Shown: in pieces, positions 13,050 through 15,462 of the stretch
How positions within the stretch are numbered: position 1 is the stretch's first letter
Layout: each line of letters begins with the position of its first letter
Assembly (NCBI RefSeq): GCF_000020725.1
Contig: NC_011146.1
Span: 3,471,501 to 3,535,500 of the forward strand
DNA: 64,000 bases
Reading direction: 5' to 3'
Source of the DNA: Citrifermentans bemidjiense Bem
Lineage (GTDB): Bacteria > Desulfobacterota > Desulfuromonadia > Geobacterales > Geobacteraceae
Made by a program: the position numbers and the translations under genes
Notes under the pieces: model-generated
Database searches by the model: none
What the model was told of the DNA's origin: nothing
What the model saw: the letters and a program-made list of their open reading frames with translations, nothing else

Positions 13050-13280
13050 CCCTCACCCGGCCTGCGGCCACCCTCTCCCACAGGGAGAGGGGTCTGGCTC
13101 CTTCAGGGACTCATCCATTTTCCACTGGTTCCCAAGCTCCAGCTTGGGAACCCGATGCGGTGCAAAGCTCCAGCTTTGCATCCTGGGAAGCTGGAGCTTC
13201 GGACGGGCCTTGCGTTCCCAAGGTGGACCTTGGGAACGAGATCAACTCACCCTCTCCCTCTGGGAGAGGGCCGGGGTGAG
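13050..13280. repeat. Cluster of REP-like palindromes between pfkA and the peroxiredoxin gene
   Basis: Four perfect palindromes, each with a 2-nt loop, lie in a row: 13127-13152 (12-bp arms, CC loop), 13161-13180 (9-bp, CC), 13187-13200 (6-bp, GG) and 13213-13238 (12-bp, GG). They are flanked by two further dyads built on CACCCTCTCCC/GGGAGAGGG (about 13070-13092 and 13248-13280). No gene is present in this gap. Confidence 0.85.
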
Positions 13281-13301
13281 GGAAGGCTCTTTCTAGACGG
13301 G

Positions 13302-13955
13302 CTAACCGGGTCTTGCCTGTAACGCATCGAGTATCGCCTGGGGCTCCAGGCGCTTCCTGGGATCGCTGTCCACGTAGCTCAGGATGATGCGCCCGTCCCG
13401 CCCGATGACGAAGGTGCCGGCCAAAGGCAGTTCCCACGACTGGTCCGCGTTGAAGTCGGGAAGGTTTACCCCCAGCGAGATGTACAGCTGACGCACCCAG
13501 TCCGGGAGCCGGTACACAAGCCCATAACCACGGGCAACCTCGTTTCCCAGGTCGCTCAACACTTCGTACTGCAGGAAGTTTTTCAAGAGCGTTGCCTGGG
13601 TCTTGTCCGGGCTCTGCGGCGAAACCGCGATGAGCGACGCACCCAAGTGCAGGACCTGGGGGAGGATTTTCTGGTATGCCCTCAACTGAAGGCTGCAGTA
13701 CGGTCACCAGATCCCGCGATAAAAAGTGAGGACCACCGGCCCGTTGGCAAGCGCATCGCTCAGCCGGACCGGAATGCCCACGGCATTGGGCAAGGTGAAA
13801 TCGGGCGCCTCTGCGCCGGCCTTGGGAGCGCCCGCCGTGCTGGCGCAGGCGGCGATGTCCCGGTATGCCTTGTCGAGAAGCTCTGCCTTCTCCGGCGAGT
13901 TGGCACGATACGAATGCTCCAGCGCATCTATTTGCGACCTCAGATCACGTTCCAT
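13302..13955 (-). CDS. Selenocysteine-containing peroxiredoxin-like protein (UGA at 13704-13706 read as Sec)
   Basis: A 217-aa AhpC/TSA-family thioredoxin-fold reductase. Residues 50-217 follow the family: APDFTLPNAVG, VVLTFYRGIW-U-PYC, then SLQLRAYQ, SPQSPDK, LSDLGNEVARGYGLV and the GTFVIGRDGRI strand. Relatives have Cys in the W-C-P-Y-C site; here the codon is TGA at 13706-13704 (residue 84), with the frame intact on both sides and Cys87 kept, giving a U-x-x-C redox pair. A short hairpin with GU in its loop lies 18 bases after the TGA. A nonsense mutation is the alternative, but the exact active-site position argues for Sec. The start has GGAGG six bases upstream. Standard annotation would split this into two false ORFs. 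Confidence 0.88.
13678..13693 (-). promoter_or_regulatory. Candidate bacterial SECIS hairpin
   Basis: On the minus strand GCCTTC (13693-13688) pairs with GAGGGC (13683-13678; one G-U pair) around an AGTT loop. The GU in the loop is 18-19 bases after the in-frame TGA, within the spacing used by SelB in bacteria. The primary sequence is also coding, as is usual for bacterial SECIS elements. Confidence 0.55.
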
Positions 13956-14065
13956 AGCCCCCTCCGGTTATTGTTTTAGCCACCAATTCTACGCAGATCC
14001 ATGAAGAGGTCAATGATTTCCATCAGTAGCGTCTTTTTTCAACGCATGCAGACAATCGTATATTT

Positions 14066-14079
14066 TTGACCCATGTCAT
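14066..14079 (+). promoter_or_regulatory. Crp/Fnr-family operator ahead of the hemerythrin operon
   Basis: TTGAC-CCAT-GTCAT is a near-perfect dyad of the TTGAC-N4-GTCAA type. With TATCTT at 14102-14107 as -10 box, the dyad centre falls near -41, the class II activator position. Regulation by an FNR-, DNR- or HcpR-like protein responding to oxygen or NO is inferred. Confidence 0.5.
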
Positions 14080-14139
14080 AAACAATTTTCCTTGCCGGCG
14101 CTATCTTCAGTTCAACGAAACGCACAAAGGAGGGAACAG

Positions 14140-14364
14140 ATGGAATTCAAAAACGGCTTGGGAGATGCGGCCATACAGAACGTGATAGCGAGTCACCCGG
14201 AGATCGGCGACATCCTGAACCGCTACGAGATCGGTTGCGTCTCCTGCAAGGTCGGCATCTGCCTCCTGAAGGACGTGGTTTCCATTCACGGGCTGACCAA
14301 GGAGCAGGAAGCCTCGGTAGAAAAAGAAATAAATGACTATTTGGATCGTAAAGCCGAAAATTAA
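14140..14364 (+). CDS. DUF1858/ScdA-N-like small redox protein
   Basis: A 74-aa protein with the pattern VIASHPEIGDILNRYEIGCVSC followed by CLLKDVVSIHGL. It resembles the small helical domain found at the N-terminus of ScdA/RIC iron-sulfur repair proteins and in DUF1858 redox proteins, which carry Cys-x2-Cys pairs. GGAGG lies six bases before the ATG; an in-frame extension of 16 residues has no such signal. It is first in a three-gene plus-strand operon ending in a hemerythrin, the other half of what ScdA combines in one protein. A role in nitrosative or oxidative damage repair is inferred. Confidence 0.75.
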   Translation: MEFKNGLGDAAIQNVIASHPEIGDILNRYEIGCVSCKVGICLLKDVVSIHGLTKEQEASVEKEINDYLDRKAEN

Positions 14365-14450: not shown

Positions 14451-14909
14451 ATGGCACATGCAGGATGCGGCTGCCCGGGCAGCATGGCGAGGGTTATCGA
14501 GAGGAACGAGGCAACTGAGCAGGAGAACACGGTAAAGGCGGCTTCGGAGTTGCGGCAGTGGCCGGTGCAACTGCACCTGGTTCCCCCTACCGCCCCCTGG
14601 TTCCAGGACAGCGACATATTGATCGCGGCCGACTGCGTCGCTTTCGCGCTGGGGAGCTTCCACAGCGACCTCTTGAAGGGAAAGGCTCTGGCGATCGCCT
14701 GCCCCAAACTCGACGACAGCGCCGCGTACGTGGAGAAGCTAGCCACGATCTTCAGGGAAAACGAGGTGAAGAGCATCACCGTCGCCATCATGGAAGTCCC
14801 CTGCTGCCGCGGCCTGGACATGATGGTGAGGCAGGCTCTCACCCAGTCCGGGAAAGAGATACCGCTGGAGACCGCAGTGATCGGCATCAACGGGGAGAGG
14901 AGGAACTAG
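14451..14909 (+). CDS. Iron-sulfur-type protein (ferredoxin-like family, C-terminal module only)
   Basis: A 152-aa protein starting MAHAGCGCPGS. It is similar to the C-terminal half of a family of about 200-aa 4Fe-4S proteins, which continue with LRQWPVQLHLV, ADCVAFALG, LLKGKALAIACPKLDD and MEVPCCRGL. The N-terminal ferredoxin domain with its CxxC clusters is absent, so this is a stand-alone short form. Conserved cysteines at CGC, ADC, IAC and PCC could bind a cluster. GGAG lies upstream of the ATG. It sits between the ScdA-N-like gene and the hemerythrin gene, one base from the latter. Confidence 0.75.
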   Translation: MAHAGCGCPGSMARVIERNEATEQENTVKAASELRQWPVQLHLVPPTAPWFQDSDILIAADCVAFALGSFHSDLLKGKALAIACPKLDDSAAYVEKLATIFRENEVKSITVAIMEVPCCRGLDMMVRQALTQSGKEIPLETAVIGINGERRN

Positions 14910-14910
14910 G

Positions 14911-15462
14911 ATGAAACGGGACATCACCCAGAGGCTCAAGGACGAACACCAGCTGATCCTGCGCATGCTCGCCCTTTTGGAGCAGAACGCGAAACGCACT
15001 GAAGAGGGCACCTTCAAGAATTACCAGTTCTACCTGGACGGGGTCGACTTCATCAGGAATTACGCCGACCGTTTCCACCATGCCAAGGAGGAGGATGTCC
15101 TGTTCGAAGCCCTGGTGACAAACGGCATGCCCAGGGCCAACAGCCCGGTAGCGGCGATGCTGATGGAGCATGACCTGGGAAGGGCCTTCGTTAAAGGGAT
15201 GGAGGAGGCCGCCACCCGCGCTATCAATGGCGAGGCGGAACAGGAAGAAGCCATAGTCGCCAACGCGAGGGGTTACCTGGAGCTTTTGCGCGATCATATC
15301 GCCAAGGAGGATGACATCCTCTACCCCCTGGCGGAGCGGGTGCTACCGGAGGAGATGCGCGAGAATATCGTGGCTGGTTACCGCACGGCCGAGGAGAAGT
15401 CGGAAGCAGGTTTCGAGGCGCATTACAAAAGCGTAGTGGAAAAGTACGAGGCGGAAGGATAA
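14911..15462 (+). CDS. Hemerythrin domain protein
   Basis: A 183-aa four-helix di-iron protein. Iron ligands are suggested by LKDEHQLI (His), RFHHAKEEDVLF (HxxxE type), MEHDLGR and LRDHIAKEDDILYPL. This arrangement is that of YtfE/RIC- and DUF438-like hemerythrins, which handle O2 or NO or repair iron-sulfur clusters. The ATG overlaps the preceding TAG region with only one base between, inside a good GGAGG context, so it is coupled to the upstream gene. It ends the three-gene operon; the shared terminator is at 15671-15700. Confidence 0.9.
   Translation: MKRDITQRLKDEHQLILRMLALLEQNAKRTEEGTFKNYQFYLDGVDFIRNYADRFHHAKEEDVLFEALVTNGMPRANSPVAAMLMEHDLGRAFVKGMEEAATRAINGEAEQEEAIVANARGYLELLRDHIAKEDDILYPLAERVLPEEMRENIVAGYRTAEEKSEAGFEAHYKSVVEKYEAEG

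Follow-up and report, generated by a model that had tools for sequence, protein, structure and literature searches.

An open reading frame listing of the window (the whole stretch of 64,000 nucleotides analysed here, from Citrifermentans bemidjiense) cuts one gene in two, giving an 83-aa ORF (13704-13955) and a 127-aa ORF that begins with TTG (13302-13685), and the locus raises the question of whether these are the halves of a gene broken by a stop, two short proteins, or one protein in which the TGA between them is read as selenocysteine (Sec). We conclude that the seemingly stop-broken gene is almost certainly an intact selenocysteine gene. It very probably encodes a selenoprotein of 217 residues from the Prx-like group of the AhpC/TSA family (PF00578), with a U-P-Y-C motif, a reading we favor because a conserved frame runs through the UGA, the Sec machinery is complete, and a conserved hairpin is well placed after the codon. 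SelB-GTP-Sec-tRNA would bind this hairpin and the ribosome would insert Sec at UGA84; when selenium is lacking, an 83-residue fragment would be made. What is predicted to be a working redox enzyme would otherwise be overlooked, or entered as two fragments, both in the host genome and in its relatives.

One reading frame across a TGA

On the minus strand, the frame from 13955 to 13302 has a single interruption, the TGA at codon 84, which lies within FYRGIW-U-PYC (Table 1). The read-through protein matches the AhpC-TSA model PF00578 at 95.4 bits over residues 47-190, and the domain crosses the TGA. A preliminary description of this DNA had placed an in-frame TGA (13706-13704) in a W-C-P-Y-C motif, with a frame open and family-like on either side and with Cys87 forming a U-x-x-C pair, and the sequence bears this out: the minus strand reads WUPYC, there is no other internal stop, and the residue encoded at 13697-13695 is Cys in all family copies. 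The next gene on the minus strand after the selenoprotein gene encodes phosphofructokinase. Between 13050 and 13290, downstream of the gene, lie the intergenic inverted repeats GTTCCCAAG...CTTGGGAAC and CCCTCTCCC...GGGAGAGGG, each present twice; an Rfam scan of 13100-14200 returned nothing relevant, only weak miRNA matches that land on intergenic inverted repeats. On the plus strand, two small divergent ORFs (14143-14364, which has the Cys-rich stretch CVSCKVGIC, and 14451-14909), neither with a Pfam match at E 0.001, adjoin a hemerythrin-domain gene (14911-15462).

Table 1. Features of the selenoprotein gene, and the hairpin types found after the TGA in family copies.
Feature	Positions	Strand	Remarks
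Whole coding frame	13302..13955	minus	217 residues with predicted Sec84; ATG at 13955 to TAG stop at 13302; PF00578 across the TGA
UGA codon, predicted to be read as Sec84	13704..13706	minus	TGA in 58/82 family copies, TGC/TGT in 24
Cys87 codon TGC, putative partner of Sec84 in U-P-Y-C	13695..13697	minus	Cys in 93/93 hits; aligned with the Prx peroxidatic position
Likely ribosome-binding site GGAGGGGG	13958..13965	minus	2 nt upstream of the ATG; from sequence
Sigma-70-like promoter TTGACC-16-TAGAAT	13986..14013	minus	10/12 matches, 30 bp upstream of the ATG; a consensus match only
SECIS hairpin, six pairs, apical loop AGUU (13684-13687)	13678..13693	minus	from folds and cross-species comparison
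Hairpin type 1, GCCUUC-AGUU-GAGGGC or G-C variant			host's family; 20 copies
Hairpin type 2, GCGGAGCU-GGA-AGCUCUGC and variants			34 copies
Hairpin type 3, CUCC-AGUUG-GGAG			4 copies

Counting the window's own, 293 genomes were searched, and 64 of them hold a family match. Four of these genomes (G025, G032, G242, G261) have weak matches only, below 80 bits on rescoring; the remaining 60 comprise 53 with TGA copies only, five with Cys copies only and two with both kinds, giving a TGA copy at the same codon in 55 of the 293 genomes, again counting the window's own. Among the 93 hits (92 loci) of at least 80 bits, the codon at the site is TGA in 66, TGC in 17, TGT in 10 and nothing else, and position 87 is Cys in every one. 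When 11 hits below 80 bits and 11 duplicate loci (L094-L104) are left out, 82 copies at separate loci divide into 58 with TGA, 15 with TGC and nine with TGT, the second motif residue being Cys throughout. The copies are related and their counts are not independent; the position of the TGA is far beyond chance. An in-frame UGA aligned with a Cys of homologues is one mark of a bacterial selenoprotein, and here 58 TGA copies align with 24 Cys copies. The preliminary description had proposed to be judged by such an alignment, and the relatives carry TGA or Cys (TGC/TGT) at exactly this site rather than stops at random positions. The TAA seen in some match rows is the normal gene end, and in one copy (L074) the matched stretch contains another stop close to its beginning, possibly upstream of the true start. 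A further 17 copies from a named collection (L105-L121) are all Cys, a scan that may lean towards Cys because one of its six search patterns holds a Cys codon; the nearest named record, from Citrifermentans bremense, is 95% identical, own-genome records possibly having been left out. Protein search did not return L055, a weak hit in the host genome.

Machinery and hairpin for reading UGA

The host genome, a single contig of 4,615,150 bases, encodes selA (600 bits), selB (393 bits), selD (359.5 bits, with an in-frame TGA of its own) and a tRNA-Sec (74.9 bits, over its cut-off; anticodon tca by ARAGORN). SelA, SelB, SelD and tRNA-Sec, the set expected in the genome of a bacterial selenoprotein, are thus all present, and the search for selA, selB, selC and selD that had been suggested found a complete machinery rather than the absence that was to count against the idea. 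The TGA of selD (L018, own genome C1:3972577-3973494, minus) lies in QAAGUAAKLG, pointing to a Sec-containing SelD, and a stable hairpin follows it (-15.5 kcal/mol). Across the 55 genomes with a TGA copy, searched with strict limits, selA was found in 53 and selB in 51, and none was without both; the six that miss one of them are 70-88% complete. Since selA is widespread in all relatives (248 of the 293 genomes), its co-occurrence with the TGA copy adds little, and speaks for consistency rather than proof. One of the five Cys-only genomes (G074, 78% complete) shows neither selA nor selB.

Folding of the 42 nt that follow the window's TGA gives a hairpin of six pairs, nt 11-16 with nt 21-26, whose stem begins 10 nt after the TGA and whose 4-nt loop begins 16 nt after it, with GU at nt 18-19, as the preliminary description had said of a hairpin with GU in its loop 18 bases after the TGA. 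The published model of bacterial SECIS elements allows 3-9 nt in the loop, 4-16 bp in the stem, a spacing of 16-37 nt and an MFE of at most -7.5, and places a G among the first two loop positions (PMC13188914). The window hairpin falls within every one of these constraints (loop 4, stem 6, AGUU, spacing 16, -9.8 kcal/mol), with a spacing that is the smallest the model allows. The proposal to fold this region fared less well as regards stability: the hairpin is there, but as a single sequence its stability does not stand out (z -1.23; 26 of 200 shuffles match it). Synonymous recodings were as stable in 622 of 5000 cases and had the same six pairs in 161 of 5000; 33 of 177 other windows in the gene also pass the published rule. 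The window hairpin alone is unremarkable, and its weight comes from conservation across species.

That conservation follows the codon. Of the 58 TGA copies, 52 pass the published rule; of the 24 Cys copies two do, and of 9260 in-frame windows elsewhere in the TGA genes, taken as background, 1181 do. The six TGA copies that fail its constraints in the MFE fold include two of the host's family (L041, L044). A fixed-position rule of our own is passed by 57 of 58 TGA copies, three of 24 Cys copies and 1072 of 9260 background windows, but it was drawn up after the hairpins had been seen, and the published rule gives weaker but clear results. Mean fold energy over nt 1-42 is -12.3 kcal/mol in TGA copies versus -6.9 in Cys copies, and when the windows of each TGA gene are ranked by stability, the one after the TGA comes in the top quarter in only 30 of the 58. 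Three hairpin types occur among these 58 copies (Table 1), and one locus (L083, 3217 bases) holds two neighboring TGA family copies with different types.

Within the host's family, 17 distinct TGA rows have either U-A (13 rows) or G-C (four rows) at pair 15:22, the two differing by synonymous changes in one Leu and one Arg codon. Over 21 rows (17 TGA, four Cys), 96.8% of cells pair and eight cells are changed on both sides, and none of 500 shuffles reaches either value; four of the eight doubly changed cells are Cys rows, and the four TGA rows may be a single event. The number of pairs changed on both sides (70/500) and the number of pair types (454/500) do not exceed shuffles. Covariation supports the hairpin, thinly.

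Selection on the codons bears on whether the gene is broken. All 16 TGA copies of the genus share the same codons from 86 to 92 (CTT, TTG and AGG among them), and mean synonymous diversity is 0.135 over codons 85-93, as compared with 0.374 elsewhere. The three Cys copies of the genus do not share all of these codons, diverging at some of positions 88, 89, 91 and 92, and one of them has CAG, a different residue, at codon 92. Measured on eight pairs, dN/dS ranges from 0.073 to 0.163 downstream of the TGA and from 0.029 to 0.385 upstream. The half downstream of the TGA is under strong purifying selection, which fits its translation in this frame. A pseudogene or a sequencing error, the TGA being a nonsense change or a misread TGC/TGT, would need only one base and would give just the two fragments of the ORF listing, but the low dN/dS after the stop, the frozen hairpin codons, the lack of any other internal stop in the window gene and the TGA shared at the same codon by 55 of 293 genomes contradict it, and we regard it as very improbable.

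We give scarcely any credence to a UGA read as Cys or Trp, through a changed code or near-cognate read-through: Cys does stand at the site in homologues, and sequence tools cannot tell Sec from Cys, but TGA is an ordinary stop here, ending 12 of the 29 long ORFs of the window (a crude set of longest non-overlapping ORFs, from which codon usage was also taken and among which false ORFs may lie), the genome holds tRNA-Sec(tca) with selA, selB and selD, and the hairpin accompanies TGA and not Cys. Equally remote is the idea that two proteins are made, one N-terminal of 83 aa and one of 127 aa started at the TTG at 13685. Both ORFs exist, but the break between them would cut through the active-site motif, the Pfam domain extends across it, Cys copies are open through the site, and by eye no clear ribosome-binding site lies in the 25 nt upstream of that TTG.

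Sec and Cys forms within one genus

Copies from 19 same-genus genomes are 62-95% identical to the window's, some of them Sec and some Cys, and all 19 genomes have selA and selB, including the three with Cys copies (L036, L038, L039). The genus is therefore a natural Sec/Cys comparison, suited to testing what Sec adds. A 28-row tree places the Cys forms L036 and L038/L039 within the Sec rows, with three changes among the 24 rows of the host group, and support for this nesting is modest (90/88 and 91/84). A single clade of all 20 host-family Sec rows is rejected (p-AU 0.0005), in a test made after the group had been named from a first tree. A single clade of the genus's own 16 Sec rows withstands the test (p 0.125), so that Cys nesting in the genus is favored by the tree and not secured. 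The same-genus Cys copies likely reflect at least one extra Sec/Cys switch, in either direction.

The Cys copies may also keep possible traces of the SECIS hairpin. L036 has six possible pairs in the same register with an AGUU loop, and L038 and L039 have five, and their MFE folds differ; L036 passes our fixed-position rule and fails the published one. At the codons that are CTT and AGG in every one of the 16 Sec copies, the Cys copies of the genus have CTG or TTG and CGT or CAG, which argues against simple reversion, since these codons too would need to change. Remnant SECIS elements have been described in other families, and the available text of the same source gives no Sec-to-Cys event for the Prx-like family (PMC1794560).

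Active site and place among known selenoproteins

Which residue of the U-P-Y-C motif does the chemistry? Sec or Cys at the TPGU/TPGC position of peroxiredoxins is catalytic. In an alignment with three proteins of the same genome, U84 falls on the Thr of two peroxiredoxins, L052 (TPGU) and L054 (TPGC); in the ResA-like L053 its counterpart is the leading Cys of WCPPC. Cys87 aligns with the catalytic residue of the peroxiredoxins, Sec in L052 and Cys in L054. With U84 on the Thr and on the first Cys of CxxC, and C87 on the Prx catalytic site, the protein combines a peroxiredoxin body with a thioredoxin motif. The claim that the TGA sits at the catalytic Cys accordingly stands in one sense, as the first position of UxxC with Cys in homologues, and falls in another, as the classical peroxidatic position is Cys87. 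We favor a Sec84-Cys87 pair that would cycle through a Se-S bond, with peroxide or disulfide as substrate. Sec84 may be the exposed nucleophile that attacks the substrate; it might then form a Se-S bond with Cys87, which thioredoxin or a similar reductant could reset. An unlikely alternative, though one to be weighed, is a thiol/selenol peroxidase that works through Cys87, with Sec84 resolving. The alignment of Cys87 with the Prx catalytic residue would suit it, as would the PDB matches, the best of which are BCP-type peroxidases, but ResA-type structures match nearly as well, the Prx Thr is absent, and it is residue 84, at the nucleophile position of thioredoxin and ResA, that so many species have as Sec.

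The name 'selenocysteine peroxiredoxin' is likewise half apt. The protein is a predicted selenoprotein with PF00578, but the Thr of TxxC is absent, U84 standing in place of the Thr of the TxxC/TxxU site that defines a canonical peroxiredoxin, and 'Prx-like UxxC oxidoreductase' is safer. What defines that group, PF00578 with UxxC, is present: the motif is UPYC, and PF00578 is found in all 40 aligned members, chosen from the 82 copies. No NCBIfam model scores over its own cut-off against the window protein, which leaves W-U-P-Y-C as a subfamily of its own possible. A fuller proposal is that W-U-P-Y-C forms its own selenoprotein subfamily, without an NCBIfam model and prone to annotation as two fragments. 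On this view related genes have arrived at three different SECIS sequences, all set about equally far from the UGA, and the subfamily has changed between Sec and Cys at least once in a single genus that retains the Sec machinery, a change that may have left a remnant hairpin; we put this forward tentatively, as somewhat doubtful in its entirety.

Our literature search pairing Citrifermentans with selenoprotein found no paper, and the main text of the G. bemidjiensis genome paper has no word holding 'seleno' (PMC2996986). Several known groups lie close by. SelL-related redox proteins (NF040769) show weak similarity over residues 49-211, at 36.9 bits against a 120-bit cut-off, which places the window protein outside that family. 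'Peroxiredoxin-like family protein' is the annotation name of eight of the 12 listed plasmid homologues, but the selenoprotein that reviews describe under this name has UxxS where the window protein has UxxC; the UxxS kind is assigned to cd02970 (PMC13188914) and pfam13911 (PMC9312934). PF13911 at E 0.001 had no match in the window protein or the 40 aligned members. The Sec peroxiredoxins (Prx, TxxU) share PF00578, and one appears to be encoded in the same genome, a second PF00578 gene with an in-frame TGA and the classical TPGU pattern (L052:1447-1818; own genome C1, about 3424210-3424581); they differ in having Sec at the position of the window protein's Cys87 and Thr at that of its Sec84.

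One of the genomes with a TGA copy (G037) is, we take it, that of G. uraniumreducens, and the 'Prx-like' selenoprotein listed for that species may be this one. A published list has Prx-like selenoproteins in three Geobacter species (PMC1794560). The W-U-P-Y-C form of ~217 aa may belong to the same subfamily as the Prx-like UXXC proteins described in the literature: a Prx-like family with UXXC replacing TXXU (PMC1088965), a 'Prx-like 1' assigned to pfam00578 (PMC2398784), and a 'Prx-like thiol:disulfide oxidoreductase' with PF00578 and UxxC/UxxU (PMC13188914). On its predicted features, the window gene is a new member of this already known UxxC 'Prx-like' kind of selenoprotein, which has PF00578, UxxC and not TxxU, a bacterial SECIS and Cys homologues, all as in the window gene.
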